Assembly (NCBI GenBank): GCA_023475565.1
Contig: JAMCVT010000062.1
Coordinates: forward strand, 1-34,996
Direction: 5' to 3'
Length of the DNA: 34,996 nucleotides
Origin: Actinomycetota bacterium
GTDB lineage: Bacteria; Bacillota; Desulfotomaculia; Desulfotomaculales; Desulfocucumaceae
Below the pieces are notes generated by a model. It was not told the DNA's origin. It did not search any database and saw only the letters and a list, made by a program, of their open reading frames with translations. The position numbers were made by a program, and so were the translations under genes. Shown here piece after piece: positions 1,138-27,660 of this stretch. Each line of letters opens with the position of its first letter. Within the stretch, counting starts at the first letter, position 1.

Positions 1138-1212
1138 GCGGAAGTAGCTCAGTGGTAGAGCATCGCCTTGCCAAGGCGAGGGTCGCGAGTTCGAATCTCG
1201 TCTTCCGCTCCA
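1138..1212 (+). tRNA. tRNA-Gly (GCC)
   Basis: The acceptor arms GCGGAAG (1138-1144) and CTTCCGC (1202-1208) pair fully. The anticodon arm CGCCT-TGCCAA-GGCG presents GCC, and GTTCGAATC is the T-loop. CCA is encoded at 1210-1212. It is the first gene of a two-tRNA operon, 8 bp before tRNA-Cys. GCC decodes GGC and GGU glycine codons. Confidence 0.97.
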
Positions 1213-1220
1213 TTTTATGT

Positions 1221-1295
1221 GGCGACATAGCCAAGTGGTAAGGCAGAGGACTGCAAATCCTCCACTCCCCAGTTCAAATCTGGGTGTCGCCTCCA
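1221..1295 (+). tRNA. tRNA-Cys (GCA)
   Basis: The acceptor arms GGCGACA (1221-1227) and TGTCGCC (1285-1291) pair. The anticodon stem GAGGA/TCCTC presents GCA, and GTTCAAATC is the T-loop. CCA is encoded at 1293-1295. It follows tRNA-Gly in the same transcript and is followed by a perfect hairpin. Confidence 0.97.
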
Positions 1296-7412: not shown

Positions 7413-8333
7413 ATGAAGAAAAACATTCTGGTTATCGGTGGGAGTTATTTTATCGGGCGGATTTTTGTGACAGCCTTAGCAAAAAAAAGCGAATATTCTA
7501 TTCACCTGATGAACAGAGGGAGAAGTCCTTTGAGGTTAGCGGGTGTGGAGGAACACGTGTGTGACCGTAAAGATATTGCGGGAATAAAAGCAAAAATACC
7601 TGCTCTGGACTACCATGCAGTAGTTGACCTCTGTGCAGACTTCCCAAATGAAATTGAAAGCATAATTGAGAACCTGCCGGGAACAATCGGCCAATACATT
7701 TACATCAGTACCTGCACCGTTTTCGAACCGTCTAATGACCTGCCGAAGTTTGAGGATTCGCCGAAACGTTCCTCTCTGCCATCCGGACCCATGGAAGAGT
7801 ATGGTTGCAACAAATGGCAGTTGGAGCTGGAAACGCACAATGTTTGCGGCAGGCACAGCATTCCATACACCATTGTGCGCCCGGCCTTTGTCTATGGCCC
7901 GTTTAACTATGCACCCAGAGAATCTTTCTTTTTTGACCTGATCCTGTCCGGAAAGAGGATTCCATTTCCGAAAGACTCCATGGCGCTATTTCAGTTTGTT
8001 TATGTCAAAGATATTGCCAGGATACTGTTTGCCTGCCTTGGCAACGAAAAGGTTTACAATAGCACGTTTAACCTGGCAGCGGAAGAACTAATCTCTTATG
8101 CCAAACTGATTGAAGTATTTGAACAGGTGAGCGACCGGCGCATCACCACAGAAAGTTTGAGCATAGATGCAATAAACCGCAATAATATTCCGCTCCCGTT
8201 CCCGTTGGATCAACACGAAATTTATTCGGGTTCCCTGCTGTCCCGCACTCTGGACTTTAAATATACCCCTTTTATCAAGGGGATGAAAGAAACCTTTGAG
8301 TTTTACAAGAAGTATGGTTACAAAGCGCCTTAG
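7413..8333 (+). CDS. NAD-dependent epimerase/dehydratase (extended SDR)
   Basis: ATG at 7413 follows AAGGGGGG by eight bases and gives a 306-residue protein starting MKKNILVIGGSYFIGR, a Rossmann NAD site of the G-x2-x3-IG kind. An upstream in-frame ATG at 7365 would overlap the amidohydrolase and lacks a ribosome site. ISTCTVF supplies the conserved Ser/Thr and EEYGCNKWQLE the Y-x3-K pair. IVRPAFVYGP is the family's substrate loop. Such proteins act on nucleotide sugars or related polyols. No sugar-nucleotide genes are adjacent, so the substrate is unknown. It is 19 bp from the amidohydrolase, on the same strand. Confidence 0.85.
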   Translation: MKKNILVIGGSYFIGRIFVTALAKKSEYSIHLMNRGRSPLRLAGVEEHVCDRKDIAGIKAKIPALDYHAVVDLCADFPNEIESIIENLPGTIGQYIYISTCTVFEPSNDLPKFEDSPKRSSLPSGPMEEYGCNKWQLELETHNVCGRHSIPYTIVRPAFVYGPFNYAPRESFFFDLILSGKRIPFPKDSMALFQFVYVKDIARILFACLGNEKVYNSTFNLAAEELISYAKLIEVFEQVSDRRITTESLSIDAINRNNIPLPFPLDQHEIYSGSLLSRTLDFKYTPFIKGMKETFEFYKKYGYKAP

Positions 8334-8366
8334 ATAGTTAGGGGCCAGACCCTCAGGGAGGTGTGT

Positions 8367-12343: not shown

Positions 12344-12655
12344 ATGTACGCACTTATTGAGACCGGTGGGAAGCAGTTCAAGGTACAGGAAGGGGACACC
12401 CTTTATGTGGAGCTGCTTAAGAATGAGCCCGGCGAAATTGTGGAAATTGGCAGCGTTCTGGCCGTGGAAAAAGAGGGCCGGCTGATCGTAGGTTCACCCA
12501 CGGTGAGCGGGGCCAAAGTTTCTCTGAAGGTAGTACGCCACGGAAAAGGACAGAAAATTATCATTTTCAAGTATAAGGCCAAGAAGAATTACCGGCGCAA
12601 AACCGGCCACCGCCAGCCCTTTACCCAGGTTACGGTGGAAAAGATAGAGGCATAG
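12344..12655 (+). CDS. rplU: 50S ribosomal protein L21
   Basis: L21 binds 23S rRNA domain III and helps assemble the large subunit. The 103-residue sequence [18 protein letters not shown] through [18 protein letters not shown] is full length and contains the family signature [20 protein letters not shown] near the end. GGGGGAGG lies six bases before the start. It is the first gene of a two-gene operon with rpmA. Confidence 0.98.
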
Positions 12656-12692: not shown

Positions 12693-12962
12693 ATGGCTCA
12701 TAAGAAGGGTGTTGGCAGTTCGAGGAACGGCCGCGACTCCAAGCCGAAGATGCTGGGGGTAAAGAGCGCTGACGGCCAGTTCGTCTCTGCTGGATCGATT
12801 ATAGTACGCCAGCGGGGCACCAGGATTCATCCGGGCCGCAATGTGGGCAAGGGAAGGGACGATACCCTGTTTGCCAAGATAGACGGTGTGGTTGAGTTTA
12901 TAACCAGAGGCAATGATAAGAAAGAAGTGAATATAGTTCCGCCTCAGGTTGAGGTTGTTTAA
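12693..12962 (+). CDS. rpmA: 50S ribosomal protein L27
   Basis: L27 reaches the peptidyl-transferase centre with its N-terminal tail. The 89-residue product begins [16 protein letters not shown] and includes [10 protein letters not shown]-type text ([20 protein letters not shown]). GGAGGTGAG stands just upstream of ATG 12693. Many Firmicute L27 proteins carry an extra leader ending in FFA that Prp protease removes. Here there is none, and the 37-bp gap after rplU has no prp. The obg gene that often follows is also absent; a terminator comes instead. Confidence 0.98.
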
Positions 12963-13544: not shown

Positions 13545-16184
13545 TCAGCTTATGGAGCCGCACTTCAGAGGGTCCTCGGTCCGGGAGCGGGCCCCGGCTA
13601 CTTTTCGCCACTCCTCCTCGCTCAGGGGAAGGTCGAAGCTGCGCAGCTGCGCCAGGTCAAAACCGTGCTTGGAGGCCAGCTGCCTTAAGTAGATCATGTT
13701 GTCCAGGGAGAGGTATGCCCCCAGGCTCATGTCTGTATAGTGGTGCTCCAGGGCCAGCATCATGGTTTCCGCCATGCAGGCGTAAGCCAGGCCGGGCTCA
13801 AAGCCGAAGTCCCAGCCCAGGGAAGGGCGGCCCGGAACAGCCACCACCCCACCGTCGATAACCAGAACATCAGGCCTTATTTGCTTCAGGGAAGGGCGGA
13901 CATTTGAGGGCTTGGATATGTCGCATATAATAGCCCCCGGAGCCACCCACAGGGGGTTTATCAGGTCATCCACGCTGCTGGTGGCCGTTACTATCACCTG
14001 GGCCTCGGGCAGAGCCTGGCTCAGCTCGGTGGTGATCAGCAGATAGTCCTCTTTTTCAAGCTCCTCTTCCACAGGCAGCCAGTCCTCGGTGGCGGCGCCG
14101 GTAGGAGGGAGGTTCATTTGCATAAGCCGGGCTCCCAGGCTGGAGGGAGATGGCGTCCAGCCTCCGGCGGCCTGTTTGGCCAGGTGCAGGCAGATATCGG
14201 CTCCCACCCGCCGGAGCCGGCGGGTGCTGGCCTGGGGATGGCGGGAATTGCCCACCAGTATAATGCGCTGCATCTCTTCAGACAGCATTATGGCCAGGGT
14301 TCGCCCGATGGAGCCGGTGGCCCCGATAATGGCAGCGGAGCACTGTCCCAGGTTCATGGAGAATCTATTTGCAGCCAGCTTGACGGCCTCCACCCCGGAT
14401 ACCACGGTGTAGCTGTTTCCGGTGGTGAGAGGCAGGAATTTCCCCTGGAGAAGGGTGCCGCTGCGGGAAACCACCGACGTGTAGGCCCCCAGGCCCACCA
14501 GACGGGCTCCCCGGCGGAGGGCAAGCTCCAGGGCTTTTTCCAGTTCACCTATGATAACCTTGGTATCAAGCTCCATCATCTCCCTGGCGGTGTGGGGCAG
14601 GGTGATGAATTCCCCGTATGCCCGGTGGCCTGTCTTTGATACAACAGTGGTTCTCCCTATTACAAAGGGCTCCAGTATGAGACTGCCGATATCTGCCAGC
14701 TTCTGCAGCTTATCTTCCGGCAGTGCCTTGAGGCTGGGATCGAACTGGTGAAAATTATAAAGGTCCAGCGGGTGGATAAGGAAGGCGAAGCGCCCCTCCT
14801 TCGGGTCCTCCGAGGGCTGGTAGCGTTCCCAGGGGTGTACCTCAACAGCGGTCTTCCCGGAATCTGCCTCTCCGTCCAGCTCCAGCAGGGGCCTCATTAT
14901 TTCAATGGTGTTGCCGGCATCCAGTATGGCTAAAACCTTTTCCAGTGACTTTAACGCTGAGCTGCACTCCTCCCAGGTTACGGTAAGCGGCGGCTCTATG
15001 CGGATGACCTTGTTCCCATTGAGGGTGGGGGCCACCCTAAGCCCTTCCTCGTTCAGAAGGTAGCTTGAAATAAGTGGGGTCAGGTTGCCCTGCTCGGAAA
15101 GCACGCTCAGAAAGCAGCCGGGAAAGTCCGATCTGCTCATTTCAAACTCCATACCCAGCATATAGCCCCGTCCCCGGACTGCCTTCAGCACCCGGGGGAA
15201 GCGTTTCTGCAGCGCTTCCAGGGACTCCCGCAGGAGGCGGCCGTTTTCCCTTACCTGTCTGACCAGAGCCTGGCTGTCCCCGGTCAATAGGTCCATCACT
15301 TTAAGGCCCACACGGCAGCCGGGGGTATTGGCGGCAAAGGTGGAGGAGTGCCGCTCCCCGAATTCCCTGGTGTAGGCCGAGGAAGTGGAAAGGCAGGCCC
15401 CTATGGGGTAAAGTCCTCCCCCCAGCGCCTTGGCCAGGAGAAGCAGGTCGGGGGTTATGTTTTCCTCCTCGCAGGCAAAAAGCCTGCCCGTGCGGCCCAG
15501 GCCGGTCTGAATCTCATCAAGTATAAAAAGCACCCCGTGCCGGCGGCAAAGATCCGCCGCCCCGGCAAGGTAGCCGGGCTGAGGCACCACTATGCCGCCC
15601 TCTCCCTGGATGGGCTCCAGTATTAAGGCCGCGTAATCGCAGCCGCTGTTTTCAAGCTCCTCCCGGAGGGCCTGCAGATCGTTATACGGAATGGACTTGA
15701 ATCCTTCCACCGGGGCCCCGAAGGGGGACTGGTAATACGCCCTTCCGGTAGCTGAAAGGGCGCCCAGCGTCTTGCCGTGGAAGCTGTTGTCCGCGCTCAT
15801 TATGCCCATTCTTCCGGTGGCCGAGCGGGCCATTTTGATGGCGGCCTCCACTGCCTCGGCGCCGCTGTTGGTAAAGGTAACATACTCCAGGCCGGCCGGG
15901 GCCGCCTCAACCAGCCGCCGGGCCAGCTCACCGGCGGCCTCCAGTGCCGAGGGCTGTATAAAGCTGGGCTCCCCGGTGAGACGCACCTGCTCCAGGGCCT
16001 CCCATATCTCGGGGGGGTTGTAGCCAAAGGGGAGCGCCCCGTAGGCGGCAATAAAGTCAAGGTACCGGCCGCCCCCGGAGTCGTAAAGGTAGTGGCCCTC
16101 CCCCCGGGTAAATACCTTGTCCATACGCATCTGTTCCAGCAGTTCCCCCAGGTGTGGGTTGACATACCGTGTAAATTTATGCAT
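13545..16184 (-). CDS. Class III aminotransferase fused to acyl-ACP-reductase-like domain
   Basis: Residues 1-425 form a PLP class III aminotransferase: NSGAEAVEAAIKMAR (107-120) binds cofactor phosphate, D223 in ILDEIQTG holds the pyridine nitrogen, and K252 in LLLLAKALGGG is the Schiff-base lysine. Residues 465-860 resemble cyanobacterial long-chain acyl-ACP reductase (AAR): FAFLIHPLDLYNFHQF, LGAYTSVVS, LTTGNSYTV, the Rossmann motif GATGSIGRTLA (621-631), VIDGGVV, and C803 in YACMAET, aligning with the catalytic Cys of AAR (FACFAE). Known AAR makes fatty aldehydes from acyl-ACP with NADPH; a transaminase could turn these into amines. ATG 16184 follows AAAGAGGT. The HTH regulator gene lies 104 bp upstream on the same strand. 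The substrate is inference. Confidence 0.85.
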   Translation of the reverse strand: MHKFTRYVNPHLGELLEQMRMDKVFTRGEGHYLYDSGGGRYLDFIAAYGALPFGYNPPEIWEALEQVRLTGEPSFIQPSALEAAGELARRLVEAAPAGLEYVTFTNSGAEAVEAAIKMARSATGRMGIMSADNSFHGKTLGALSATGRAYYQSPFGAPVEGFKSIPYNDLQALREELENSGCDYAALILEPIQGEGGIVVPQPGYLAGAADLCRRHGVLFILDEIQTGLGRTGRLFACEEENITPDLLLLAKALGGGLYPIGACLSTSSAYTREFGERHSSTFAANTPGCRVGLKVMDLLTGDSQALVRQVRENGRLLRESLEALQKRFPRVLKAVRGRGYMLGMEFEMSRSDFPGCFLSVLSEQGNLTPLISSYLLNEEGLRVAPTLNGNKVIRIEPPLTVTWEECSSALKSLEKVLAILDAGNTIEIMRPLLELDGEADSGKTAVEVHPWERYQPSEDPKEGRFAFLIHPLDLYNFHQFDPSLKALPEDKLQKLADIGSLILEPFVIGRTTVVSKTGHRAYGEFITLPHTAREMMELDTKVIIGELEKALELALRRGARLVGLGAYTSVVSRSGTLLQGKFLPLTTGNSYTVVSGVEAVKLAANRFSMNLGQCSAAIIGATGSIGRTLAIMLSEEMQRIILVGNSRHPQASTRRLRRVGADICLHLAKQAAGGWTPSPSSLGARLMQMNLPPTGAATEDWLPVEEELEKEDYLLITTELSQALPEAQVIVTATSSVDDLINPLWVAPGAIICDISKPSNVRPSLKQIRPDVLVIDGGVVAVPGRPSLGWDFGFEPGLAYACMAETMMLALEHHYTDMSLGAYLSLDNMIYLRQLASKHGFDLAQLRSFDLPLSEEEWRKVAGARSRTEDPLKCGSIS

Positions 16185-17170: not shown

Positions 17171-17204
17171 ATGAATAAAGCAACCCTTTTAGGGTTGCTT
17201 TTAA
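17171..17204 (-). terminator. Terminator of the large RNA
   Basis: On the minus strand, AAGCAACCCT pairs with AGGGTTGCTT across a three- to four-base loop, followed by TATTCATTTC. The stem is ten pairs. Confidence 0.8.
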
Positions 17205-17761
17205 AATTTTCAGTGAAAGCATACCAGGTAAATGTTGCGGCTTAAGGTCCGGTAGGATTTCCCAGAAGGCTACCCGTCGTTGCCGCACGGGCGGTTTCCC
17301 TTTAAAACCTCTCCGGGCGCTAAGCCCGGGACCGGATTGCCACTGAGTCCGCACTGCAATCCCCGGTCTGCCCCATCCTGATGATGGACAGCCTAGAAGT
17401 TTTCCTTGACGGCGGCCCCTCTTGCTAGCCTCTATTGCAGTCTACGGTTTCAGGATATTATCCATCCCCCGCAGCCACTTCAAGGCGGGCTACACTGCAC
17501 GCAGCGTCTACCACATGCAGGTTCACACCCCGGGCGTAAGCTTTTGTTGTTCACCTGCGCTCCGGGTCTCCACGGAAACAGGGACATCATACATGCCTTT
17601 GTATTTAGCCCTGGATCCTTAACTCCCAGCACCAGCCCCCGATGGCGTCGAAAGCCAGCACCAGGAACTTCATCGATGTGCCCTTGGCGGATTTTTAGCC
17701 CCGCCTTCGTAAGAGGTTATCCGACTAGGATACTGCTTCACTGATTGTTTAATTATTTAGT
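17171..17761 (-). ncRNA. ole: Large structured RNA, probable OLE RNA
   Basis: About 590 bases on the minus strand lie between a strong promoter and an intrinsic terminator with no plausible protein. Self-complementary blocks are dense: GACCGG...ATTGC with GCAATCCGGTC, CCCGGGCTTAGCGCCCGG, and GGCGGGGCTAAAAATCCGCC. CTGGTGCTGG occurs twice near 17625 and 17667. Length, promoter-to-terminator layout and an anaerobic clostridial setting fit OLE (ornate large extremophilic) RNA, a ~600-nt RNA found with OapA at membranes. RNase P, tmRNA, SRP and group II intron landmarks were looked for and not found. oapA is not in the window. The OLE name rests on size and partial recall of conserved segments. 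Confidence 0.65.
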
Positions 17762-17767
17762 AAAGTA

Positions 17768-17796
17768 ATTTTATCATGGTTCATTATGGTTGTAAA
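17768..17796 (-). promoter_or_regulatory. Promoter of the large RNA
   Basis: On the minus strand, TTTACA (17796-17791), a 17-bp spacer and TAAAAT (17773-17768), with an extended TGA just before. The start site is expected near 17761. Confidence 0.75.
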
Positions 17797-17964: not shown

Positions 17965-18109
17965 AATTCAGAATCCAGGAGACAGAATGGTTTGGGTATT
18001 TCTTATATGTTGTATAAGGGTAGAGAATCCCCATCTGAAGCCCCGATGTTCAGCTAAAGCTGAACAAGTCTCCCGTCTCCCGTCTCCCGTCTCCCGTCTC
18101 CCGTCTCCC
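17951..18109. repeat. MITE-like repeat with (GTCTCCC)6 end
   Basis: The left part GGAATTCAGAATTCAGAAT followed by CCAGGAGACAGAATGG is similar to 29079-29111. The right part is six perfect tandem copies of GTCTCCC (18068-18109), complementary to GGAGAC of the left part. AGCT-centred TTCAGCTAAAGCTGAA lies inside at 18049-18064. A short non-coding mobile repeat is likely. Confidence 0.6.
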
Positions 18110-18136
18110 GACCAGAGGTACTACCCTTGAGCTTTT

Positions 18137-19288
18137 TTACTCACCTACAGCCGGGGCCGGGGACCTTTTACGCCAGTTGTACAGGGCCAGGGATACGGTG
18201 CCCATGGCCAGGGCAATCACGGCTATGCTTATGATGGTCCCCACAATAGGGATGTTGGCCAGCAGTATCAGCCCCGCCAGGCCTATCATGAAGGGTACTA
18301 TGCCGGGCACCTTGTTTTCCCAGCCGAAGCGCCTGGACAGAAATCTTCCGGCGGCGTCGCCGGCAATTATCTTCCCGGCGTAAAGCAGTGCGGCGTAAGC
18401 AAACATAAGGGCCAGTGAGACCGGGATGCCCACAACGGTTATCAGCAGCAGCAGCGCGGCCAGGGGAGTTGTCAGCAGTGCCAGCACACCCCAGCCCAGA
18501 CTGGCCCAGGGAGATCCGGCTATGGTCTGACTGAGAGTGCTCCACACGGGCGGGAATAGAAGGGTGAAAATTCCCCATACCAGTACCCCGGAGGCAAACC
18601 AGGCCAACTGGGCCAGCCAGTTGATGCCCTCCCGGTGCTGAGGCCGCTCTTTAGTCAGGATCTGATTCCAGTCGGCGGCGCCTCCTATGTCTGCCCCGGG
18701 GTCAATCTCGGCCGGGCTTCTTGACCCGTAGGAAAGGCTGCCGGCAATGGCCCCCTCAGGACCGACCTTTAAACTTCCCACCGAAGGTATTTTGACGTTT
18801 CCCCCCACCGGGCTGTTCAAAAATATATTTTCCCCCGCTCCCAGCAGGTGGCGCCCTATTTTGCCGGATACAGTCATGCCGCCCATGGCGGCCACCATGT
18901 CCCGGTTTATCCGGGAGCCTGCCAGTATCTGAATTTCAGAGGCTGCCGCAGTGAGGCTCCCGGCTGTTTGTCCGCCGACGGTCAGGCTGGATGCCGCCAC
19001 CCGGGCGTCGCCGTTTATGGCGCCGTTAATGCGTATAACGTTGCCGGCGGCCAGCAGGTCACCGTCTATCTTCCCGTTCACCGTGACGGTCTGCCCGGCT
19101 GCAAAAACATCCCCGTCCACATCGGCATTGATTACTATACTGTTACCGGTTACAAACACCGGCCCTTCCACTTTTCCCTCCGGAAGGGTGACGGCGTCTC
19201 CTTTATAAAACTCCATTGCCCCGGCCGGGACGGCCAGGCACAGTAACGACAGCAGGGCCACCAAAATAATTAATAGCTTTTTAGGCAT
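18137..19288 (-). CDS. Signal-peptide bactofilin-like membrane protein
   Basis: Residues 1-24 are a cleavable signal (KLLIILVALLSLLCLAVPAGA). Residues 30-200 form a right-handed beta-helix of the polymer-forming/bactofilin kind, with repeats such as DVDGDVFAAGQTVTVNGKIDGD and LLAAGNVIRINGAINGDARV. From about 225 there are four or five membrane helices ending in a basic tail (YNWRKRSPAP). So the beta-helix is outside the membrane. Many Firmicute anti-sigma operons carry such a protein, possibly an envelope scaffold or sensor. It overlaps the anti-sigma gene by eight bases, forming the third gene of a sigma, anti-sigma, effector operon. Confidence 0.8.
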   Translation of the reverse strand: MPKKLLIILVALLSLLCLAVPAGAMEFYKGDAVTLPEGKVEGPVFVTGNSIVINADVDGDVFAAGQTVTVNGKIDGDLLAAGNVIRINGAINGDARVAASSLTVGGQTAGSLTAAASEIQILAGSRINRDMVAAMGGMTVSGKIGRHLLGAGENIFLNSPVGGNVKIPSVGSLKVGPEGAIAGSLSYGSRSPAEIDPGADIGGAADWNQILTKERPQHREGINWLAQLAWFASGVLVWGIFTLLFPPVWSTLSQTIAGSPWASLGWGVLALLTTPLAALLLLITVVGIPVSLALMFAYAALLYAGKIIAGDAAGRFLSRRFGWENKVPGIVPFMIGLAGLILLANIPIVGTIISIAVIALAMGTVSLALYNWRKRSPAPAVGE

Positions 19289-19796
19289 GGGCGTGTCCTC
19301 CTTTGCGTATTTTAAATTTAATCCAGGTCAGGCAAAAAACCATTACCACCAGGGCCGGCAGCGCCAGCTCACCATTCAGGGAGGCCCCGGCCGCCTGCCT
19401 TAAAAGGCCGGCCATCAACAAAACTGTTTCTGAAATAAGGGTGCCTCCGGCCAGCAGTTTGATGAACGACAGCACATTTTCCAGCAGGTTCCACAGCCCT
19501 GCCGCCGACGCTATAAAAATCCCTGTCAAAACCGCCGCCGGTATTAGCATAAAAAGCCACCTGGTCTCTGTTTCATTTTGAGAGTTCAGCCTGTGCCCGA
19601 TAAATGCCGCCAGGTTCGGAGGAAGCGGGATTCCGGCCAGGGACGCCCCTATAAGATCGGCCTCTCTCCGCAGGCCGGCCACTAGGCGCGTGCAGTCCCG
19701 GCACCCGTCCAGGTGTCCTTTCATTTCTTCCTTTCTTGCCGGTGGAAGCTCGCTGTCCAGGAACAGGTTCCATTCAAAATCTCCGGGGCAATTCAT
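19281..19796 (-). CDS. Zinc-finger anti-sigma factor, membrane-bound
   Basis: ATG 19796 comes one base after the sigma gene stop, eleven bases from AAAGGAGG, giving 171 residues. An in-frame GTG at 19808 overlaps that ribosome site. His28, Cys32 and Cys35 in GHLDGCRDC form the ZAS (zinc-binding anti-sigma) motif H-x3-C-x2-C near the N-terminus, which clamps an ECF sigma factor. Membrane helices lie at about 80-100, 115-135 and 145-162, with a basic, His-containing tail (KFKIRKGGHAHA). Translational coupling with the sigma gene supports a cognate pair. The signal that releases the sigma factor is unknown. Confidence 0.9.
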   Translation of the reverse strand: MNCPGDFEWNLFLDSELPPARKEEMKGHLDGCRDCTRLVAGLRREADLIGASLAGIPLPPNLAAFIGHRLNSQNETETRWLFMLIPAAVLTGIFIASAAGLWNLLENVLSFIKLLAGGTLISETVLLMAGLLRQAAGASLNGELALPALVVMVFCLTWIKFKIRKGGHAHA

Positions 19797-19797
19797 A

Positions 19798-20346
19798 CTA
19801 TAAGGCACCTCCTTTGTCTCCGGTAAGATCTTTCCTCAGTTTTCCCCGGGCTCTGTGCAGCCTGGTGCCCACCGTGGCCTCGGGTATGTCCAGCACTTCG
19901 CTTATCTCCCCGTAGCTCATCTGCTGGTAGTAGCGCAGAAATACTATGGCCCTGTCCTGGTCCGGCAGGCGGGCCACAGCCTGCCGGACCCCGCTCTGCT
20001 CATCGGCCTCCAGCGCCGCCTGCTCGGGGGTTGGCTCCGGGCTCCGGCTAATCCTGGTGTATATTTTGGGCAGGAGCCTTAAGAAGGAGCTCTTTTTCCG
20101 CAGTATATCCTGGCAGTGATTATAGGAGACCCTCATCAGCCAGGCTCGGAAATGCTCTTCCGGGATAATACCGGGGTTGGCATAAATCTTTACAAAGATG
20201 TCGGCGGCGGCATCCCGGGCCTCTTCCTCGGAGCGAAGGAGATACAGAGCCAGCCTGTATATATCCGGGCTGTGCTTGTTGATTAAATCAGCTGCCGCCT
20301 TCCGGTCCTGAGCAGGGGGCACTGCCTGCGGGACGCTTTTTTCCAC
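19798..20346 (-). CDS. ECF-type RNA polymerase sigma factor
   Basis: The 182-residue protein has region 2 at about 20-90 (DIYRLALYLLRSEEEARDA then AFRAW-like HFRAWLMRVSYNHCQDILRK) and region 4 at about 120-170, with YYQQMSYGEISEVLDIPEA and VGTRLHRARGKLRKDL as the HTH. These are ordinary for SigW/RpoE-like sigma factors. The start is GTG 20346 with AGAGGGTG before it. A TATAAT at 20374-20379 on the minus strand is a likely -10 and I see no clear ECF-type autoregulatory -35. The next gene encodes its anti-sigma factor. Confidence 0.9.
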   Translation of the reverse strand: MEKSVPQAVPPAQDRKAAADLINKHSPDIYRLALYLLRSEEEARDAAADIFVKIYANPGIIPEEHFRAWLMRVSYNHCQDILRKKSSFLRLLPKIYTRISRSPEPTPEQAALEADEQSGVRQAVARLPDQDRAIVFLRYYQQMSYGEISEVLDIPEATVGTRLHRARGKLRKDLTGDKGGAL

Positions 20347-26036: not shown

Positions 26037-27605
26037 CTAATCAGTCATATAAGATCCAAACAGAGCCTTCCAGTGGGCCGTGGCTGCTTTGACATCCCCG
26101 GCCCGGTGATAGTTTATGCCCTGCTTGGCCAGGCTGAAGGACTCGGTAAGCACCCGGCTGAACCTTCCGAAGGTATTGATATTGGAGTAAATATAGTCGT
26201 CAATGTATGAGCCCGGCTTGCCCGGGTCAGCTATAAAGGGCGACTTATTTTGAGTCATAAGAGTATAGGCGTTTCTGAACCACAGGTAAACAGACTCGAA
26301 GGAAAGCCCGAGATTGACCCTGGAGGCTATGATGTCGGTAAGAAGCTCCAGATGGAGATTATTTATATAGCTGCAGTTAGACCTCTGCCACGCTTTAACC
26401 AGGCGCAGGAAGGGCAGGAAGGCGGGACCGTTTTTTTCAGCGGCCTTTTTCATCCACAGTTCAGGCGCCGCCGGGTTTCGGGCTAGCCAGAATCCCCCCT
26501 CGGTGCTCGGTATAAACAGCTGCACCTTTCCTTTTTCCATGGCGGCCAGCACAGGAATTATATCAAATTCCACCCCGTGCGTAACTACACCTATCCGCCC
26601 CCTGGAAGACACCATTTCGGTGCCCGGTGACTCCCTGGACAGAAACCTTTTAAAGTCCTCCAGGGTCTCCGGAACGCTTTTTTCCTGGCCCCGGGGGGGT
26701 GACATGACCGCTATTATGTCTACGGACTGCATCGGCCTGATCATGGCGCCCCTGGAGAAACTTCCGCTATAGTGCACCTGGCGGACATACATATCATAAG
26801 CCTTCTCCAGTATGTGGCACAGATTCCGGTATCCCGCCGACACTGCTTCCAACTCTGATTCGGCCAGTGTGCACTGGTCCAGTATTCCCTCCAGCTGCCT
26901 GTCCAGGACTGGTACCTGGGCAGAGCAGGGAACTGCCAGGGGGGGAAGGTCCGGCTCGGAAAGCTCCAGGCTTGCGTCTTCAATGCCTGCCGGGGAATTA
27001 AGGGGGCCGCCGGTCTCCTCTAAGGGGGGCTGTACGCTTTCATCAACAAACCCCAGGCTTTCCATGGCCACTTCGTATATGGGAACCTTGCCCACCCCGG
27101 ACAGGTTTTTAACTCCGATAAACCGGGAGACCATTTCATTGAAACTTTTTATAAAAGGCTTGATCATTTCCATGGTGGACTCATCGGTCAGTATCTGGCT
27201 GGGAAGGGCATGGTCAATCAAACGGGAGCACCTGTCCACGGCATTTCCTATATAGTCGGTTCCGTTATTATCTATTTTCGTCACAATTCCATGGCTAAAC
27301 ACCGATTTTGTCCGGAATAGAAGCTTTTCCCTGTCTATTTTTTCAACAAGCTCCAATGAAGCCAGCATTCCCTCCAGGGGAGTGTTAAAGGCGGCGATCA
27401 GCAAATCCCCGATGTTTTTAACAACCCGTCCCCCGTACCGCCCGCAAATATCGGCCGCCATTTGGTTGTGAGCAACCGCCAGGCTTACCCTGCGGGATTG
27501 TTCCAGGTCTTTCTTGCTGCTGGTTGAGTCCATAAGACTAAAAAAAGCTATGCAAAGGGACTCTATCTTCCCCAGTTTTTGGTATTTATAGTGTAGGAAG
27601 GCCAT
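26037..27605 (-). CDS. Class III cyclase homology domain fused to CD-NTase domain
   Basis: ATG 27605 has GGAGGTG seven bases upstream, giving 522 residues. Residues 15-180 form a class III cyclase homology domain: FFSLMDSTSS aligns with the metal loop FxDIxGST, KNIGDLLIAAF supplies Asp67, and GNAVDRCSRL matches GxAVNxAxR. Residues 190-225 are an acidic, proline-rich linker. Residues 230-510 are a CD-NTase (cGAS/DncV-like) domain: SGSFSRGAMIRPMQSVDII at 280-298, FDIIP with Asp348, then helices FLPFLRLVKAW and NNLHLELLTDIIASR and a final IADPG. One catalytic Asp is Ser at each site (Ser23, Ser294), so activity may be altered or lost. It follows the YvlD-like gene, and its product is unknown. 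Confidence 0.75.
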   Translation of the reverse strand: MAFLHYKYQKLGKIESLCIAFFSLMDSTSSKKDLEQSRRVSLAVAHNQMAADICGRYGGRVVKNIGDLLIAAFNTPLEGMLASLELVEKIDREKLLFRTKSVFSHGIVTKIDNNGTDYIGNAVDRCSRLIDHALPSQILTDESTMEMIKPFIKSFNEMVSRFIGVKNLSGVGKVPIYEVAMESLGFVDESVQPPLEETGGPLNSPAGIEDASLELSEPDLPPLAVPCSAQVPVLDRQLEGILDQCTLAESELEAVSAGYRNLCHILEKAYDMYVRQVHYSGSFSRGAMIRPMQSVDIIAVMSPPRGQEKSVPETLEDFKRFLSRESPGTEMVSSRGRIGVVTHGVEFDIIPVLAAMEKGKVQLFIPSTEGGFWLARNPAAPELWMKKAAEKNGPAFLPFLRLVKAWQRSNCSYINNLHLELLTDIIASRVNLGLSFESVYLWFRNAYTLMTQNKSPFIADPGKPGSYIDDYIYSNINTFGRFSRVLTESFSLAKQGINYHRAGDVKAATAHWKALFGSYMTD

Positions 27606-27660
27606 GTTGTACACCTCCGATAAGCTATGGTTCATTTTGTCACTGCACCCATACCGTTTT

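Follow-up and report, generated by a model that had tools for sequence, protein, structure and literature searches.

The question raised by this locus is whether a large structured RNA that lies away from its usual gene neighbours is a working OLE RNA, and how it came to lie there. Among bacterial RNAs of unsolved biochemical function, OLE is one of the largest and best conserved, and its link to the protein OapA rests partly on gene neighbourhood. In the stretch of DNA analysed here (the window, 34,996 nt, contig JAMCVT010000062.1) a first-pass annotation placed a structured RNA of about 590 nt on the minus strand, at 17171-17761, and named it a probable OLE RNA standing apart from oapA and isoprenoid genes. 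Our reading, to which we assign a probability of roughly 0.8, is that the segment is a functional OLE RNA expressed from its own gene, relocated from an ancestral operon and assembled into its ribonucleoprotein in trans.

The covariance-model search decided the identity in favour of the proposed name: RF01071 matched the minus strand at 17757-17197 with 426.4 bits (cut-off 50 bits; E = 4e-122), and the alignment spanned model positions 1-616, the full length of the model. That the segment is an OLE RNA, a known RNA class, is near certain, and the score rules out a new class. The coordinates of the structured segment held as well, its 591 nt folding at -238.6 kcal/mol, a stability that none of 100 shuffles equalled (z = -5.3). 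The segment had been said to lack coding logic, and indeed no sense-strand ORF of at least 80 aa was found across it, the sole overlapping ORF of that size being antisense, 112 aa long and with TTG as its start codon; the absence of a sense ORF, together with the covariation described below, rules out a coding explanation. The RF01071 search of the genome returned this single copy. The RNA and its flanking signals are:

17197 to 17757, minus strand: OLE RNA (RF01071), 561 nt, assigned by the covariance-model match and covariation
17768 to 17796, minus strand: sigma-A-like promoter, with -35 TTTACA (17796-17791), a 17-nt spacer and an extended -10, TG-A-TAAAAT (TAAAAT at 17773-17768)
17177 to 17201, minus strand: intrinsic terminator, AAAGCAACCCTAAAAGGGTTGCTTT, a stem of 11 pairs followed by a modest T-rich tail

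Transcription would start at about 17761. A generic scan for promoters paired with terminators gave 3, barely more than the chance means of 1.4 and 1.8, and we take the extended -10 promoter and the terminator, both called already in the first-pass annotation, as real because equivalent signals flank related OLEs elsewhere. By inspection, relatives of the same family (f1) carry equivalent TTTACA-17/18-TATAAT-like promoters at the same place relative to OLE, a genome of another family (G016) has a looser TATAAT-type site, and similar terminators, seen by eye and unscored, follow the relocated OLEs. The canonical OLE copy of Peptococcaceae bacterium BRH_c4b (G003), inspected in the same way, runs straight into oapA. 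Given the stand-alone signals on the relocated copies and the canonical copy that runs into oapA, relocation has probably given an RNA once embedded in an operon a transcript of its own. The window OLE would be transcribed alone and end by intrinsic termination, rather than being processed from an operon transcript.

The separation from oapA was examined across the genome with an OapA profile built from six OapA proteins of neighbouring OLE loci. The only OapA of the window genome (G000:C11:9073-9660, E = 4.8e-85) is encoded on a contig other than that of the OLE, 28 nt after ispA (polyprenyl synthetase) and just before dxs, so that the operon is intact and OLE is gone from its usual slot. An OLE host without OapA, considered when a PF01595 search of the window genome gave no match, was dropped once this gene was found. 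Adjacency of ole and oapA, which is usual and not obligatory, is absent here, and the locus is as unusual as had been supposed: 88 of the 102 OLE copies in the order lie at most 368 nt from oapA (median gap 42 nt), the window copy not being among them. The class-level genome search covered the same 113 genomes as the order-level one. The other 14 copies are made up of seven relocated ones, two incomplete OLEs at the edges of contigs and five whose genomes gave no OapA hit; two of these five genomes, G004 and Desulfocucumis palustris NAW-5 (G006), hold the remaining relocated copies.

An assembly or binning artefact could in principle separate the two genes on paper, and the window genome is indeed split into 175 contigs. 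The ispA contig of G004 ends where oapA would start, and neither ispA nor oapA was seen in D. palustris; for both, an assembly gap is the most likely explanation, rather than a true absence of OapA. Against an artefact, the separation recurs in independent assemblies, and ispA and oapA share one contig with no OLE between them in six genomes: the window genome, BRH_c4a (G001), G002, Desulfovirgula sp. Tomsk_2_57_21 (G005), HOT.CON.130 (G007) and G016. As the OLE site itself is also syntenic in most of the family, we regard an artefact as extremely improbable. The two longer of the emptied ispA-oapA gaps, those of BRH_c4a and HOT.CON.130, gave no OLE relic. The BRH_c4a gap (L065, about 8163-8365) gave weak Rfam microRNA matches on both strands of the same ~200 nt, which suggests a long inverted repeat, MITE-like in nature.

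The exceptions that contig ends or a missing oapA do not explain form one clade, consisting of eight genomes of the window family and one of another family. A relocated OLE is present in all eight window-family genomes and is the sole copy found in 8 of the 9 genomes; BRH_c4b has two OLEs, a canonical copy on C13 (518 bits) beside oapA and dxs, and a relocated copy on C26. That a whole lineage has a relocated OLE, and that one of its genomes retains the canonical copy as well, is beyond what the window sequence could show. Two ribosomal protein genes are found close to the relocated OLE in most of the family; in the window they are:

12344 to 12655, plus strand: rplU (bL21), conserved beside the relocated OLE locus across most family members
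12693 to 12962, plus strand: rpmA (bL27), likewise a conserved neighbour

In BRH_c4b the relocated copy is flanked by rpmA and spo0B-obg and lies on the opposite strand, and in G016 (family f10) the OLE has a transporter gene on one side and a response-regulator gene on the other. Because this last site differs from that of the window family, either one or two moves are possible.

Several other elements were observed around these loci. The window encodes an 879-aa class III aminotransferase (13545-16184, minus strand) with weak C-terminal Rossmann-type matches, partly PigE-like, and its gene is retained beside the relocated OLE in several relatives. Directly upstream of OLE, genes for an ECF sigma factor, a zinc-finger anti-sigma protein and a bactofilin-domain protein form one run (18137-20346, minus strand), and a short tandem array of GTCTCCC units (18068-18116) lies between the bactofilin gene and OLE. 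Farther away are two tandem tRNA genes (1138-1292, plus strand) and a 532-aa protein (26037-27635, minus strand) with a SMODS (CD-NTase type) domain at residues 246-397, a possible signalling nucleotidyltransferase. In BRH_c4a, a TwoAYGGAY RNA match (L057 2318-2475, minus strand; 45.8 bits, cut-off 43) lies near the relocated OLE.

A tree built from 59 OLEs joined the eight family copies with that of G016 in one clade (support 100/100) on a long stem of 0.54, while the canonical OLE of BRH_c4b grouped with the others. After 67 further Bacillota OLEs were added, the relocated clade stayed inside the OLEs of its own class (98 SH-aLRT), in a basal position. In the OapA tree the same genomes, including BRH_c4b and G016, again formed one clade (100/97), which fits the prediction that OapA was inherited vertically in the genomes with a relocated OLE. 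A grouping of the relocated clade with the canonical copy of BRH_c4b was neither rejected nor shown by the AU test (p-AU 0.17). The best fit is a duplication that took place before the two families diverged, with the old copy lost later. In the shared ancestor of the window family and one neighbouring family, a copy of OLE, or OLE itself, would have gone from the ancestral ispA-ole-oapA-dxs operon to other sites, and the old operon copy would then have been lost in most genomes, BRH_c4b retaining both. The basal position of the clade could instead reflect an earlier duplication, a transfer out of a donor lineage absent from the sample, or long-branch attraction. Horizontal acquisition from an unsampled lineage, in place of an internal duplication, would account for this position and for the long stem; yet the clade remains within the OLEs of its class, none of the 67 other Bacillota OLEs is a close relative from outside the two families, and the grouping with the canonical copy stands unrejected, so that we consider a horizontal origin unlikely.

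The structure of OLE is under selection in the relocated clade. Across the nine sequences, 91.9% of structure cells are in standard pairs, compared with 37-44% with slid partners, a percentage biased upward by the Rfam-derived structure having been taken from one of the nine; for this reason the 30 pairs with changes on both sides are the stronger evidence. In the window OLE, 128 of the 136 mapped pairs are standard. We also followed 200 columns conserved in at least 95% of 117 other OLEs, 180 of which are unchanged in all nine relocated OLEs. These observations bear on whether the relocated OLE is a decaying remnant that has been drifting since it left oapA, which would explain its lower scores (399-448 bits, where most canonical OLEs of the order score about 450-550), the missing P9 loop and trimmed P5.1 loop described below, and the long stem branch. 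The losses do fall at otherwise conserved positions, but they are common to the whole clade and not scattered, the RNA is the only copy found in nearly all of its hosts, and OapA is kept wherever its operon is assembled; with the conserved columns retained and many compensatory changes, the covariation largely refutes drift, and decay appears very unlikely.

The clade-wide changes concern regions with published contacts. Cryo-EM of the OLE dimer assigned contacts to the P4 loops, the P5.1-P6.1 loops and the P9 loops (PMC12265935, PMC12286853); the P4/P4a A-rich-loop region is reported as the OapA-site region and as holding an A-A dimer contact (PMC9723947, PMC12265935), the P6.1 loop is reported to be the kissing partner of the P5.1 loop (PMC12265935), and the OapB-binding site is in the P12.2/P13 region (PMC9723947). 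In the window OLE these regions are:

17686 to 17705, minus strand: A-rich-loop hairpin GGCGGG-GCUAAAAAU-CCGCC (P4/P4a region), kept
17643 to 17647, minus strand: P5.1 apical loop CGCCA, in which a CA present in other OLEs is deleted
17592 to 17601, minus strand: P6.1 loop CAAAGGCAUG, kept, including GGC
17453 to 17479, minus strand: P9 arm reduced to 27 nt (median elsewhere 67 nt), with the palindromic kissing loop gone
17264 to 17330, minus strand: hairpins of the 3' domain in and about the OapB-binding region (P12.2/P13), mostly retained, with one hairpin loop shortened

The deleted CA of the P5.1 loop is present in 117 of 117 other OLEs. The P9 arm measures 25-52 nt in the nine relocated OLEs, and its GGGCCC palindrome, found in 46 of 50 canonical OLEs of the class, occurs in none of the nine (0/9); short P9 arms are also seen in a few other OLEs. 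Fixed in the clade, too, are the replacement of a G-C pair by A-U in the small GAGGAAAACUCC hairpin and other pair switches, and a loop has changed from GCGA to GCAA. A C to G change in the A-rich loop was considered as a lineage marker and rejected as not diagnostic, the sequence being common in other Bacillota OLEs. Since the palindrome is absent and the CA deleted at published dimer-contact loops, the relocated OLE has probably lost the P9 contact and altered that of P5.1. It would dimerise with no kissing of the P9 loops and with a P5.1 loop that differs from the usual one, in which GCC may still pair with the GGC of P6.1.

A membrane OLE ribonucleoprotein is known from Halalkalibacterium halodurans. 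The window genome encodes OapA together with candidates for OapB and OapC. The OapC candidate, called by its position and Pfam family, is an L7Ae-family protein encoded between rpoC and rpsL, the YbxF position. The OapB candidate lies between map and infA and matches PDB 7k9b, 'OLE-associated protein B' (E = 9e-11). A domain search of the window genome found no CNNM (MpfA-type) protein, in keeping with a published observation that MpfA and OLE tend to exclude each other (PMC11332333). As OapA and the OapB and OapC candidates are encoded, the usual membrane ribonucleoprotein is probably assembled in trans. By analogy with its relatives, the window OLE likely works as such a particle: it would bind OapA, OapB and OapC in trans, yielding a membrane OLE ribonucleoprotein that would serve in adaptation to stress (cold, alcohol, Mg2+, carbon source).

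The neighbourhood is broken here and both genes are kept, making the OLE-OapA link independent of shared transcription, and the fixed changes at otherwise invariant positions point to dispensable dimer contacts. A genome with both OLE forms provides a natural test of dimerisation and of partner choice. The changed contacts might even stop free pairing with canonical OLE, giving two insulated OLE lineages and, in BRH_c4b, two ribonucleoproteins sharing one OapA; this proposal is doubtful, and if true it would mean that OLE paralogues with divided roles are seen for the first time, in BRH_c4b. The open-access literature searched made no reference to OLE copies that are relocated or paired, and it is uncertain whether the relocated lineage is new to the literature.

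Compared with known systems, the relocated lineage with its changed dimer contacts is a variant of the known OLE class. With full-length OLE (RF01071; H. halodurans and most Desulfotomaculia) the window OLE shares the architecture and most of the conserved sequence, including the A-rich hairpin loop, the P6.1 loop and the 3' domain, and in both cases the hosts have OapA, OapB and OapC (the last a candidate here). It differs in not lying beside oapA, in having its own intrinsic terminator, in lacking the P9 kissing loop and the P5.1 CA, in one shortened 3'-domain loop, and in several compensatory pair switches and the GCAA loop. Variant 1 OLE, from TANB77 and other clades, has shorter P7, P8 and P9 and often lacks the OapB site (Fernando and Breaker 2024, PMC11332333). 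The window OLE shares the short P9 but, unlike variant 1, has P7 and P8 arms and the OapB-region hairpins, in a host with OapB and an OapC candidate, and does not belong to that variant; nor does it belong to variant 2, where P7 and P8 are entirely absent, both arms being present in the alignment. The C26 copy of BRH_c4b is of the same relocated lineage, and that genome, unlike the window genome, additionally carries the canonical C13 OLE.
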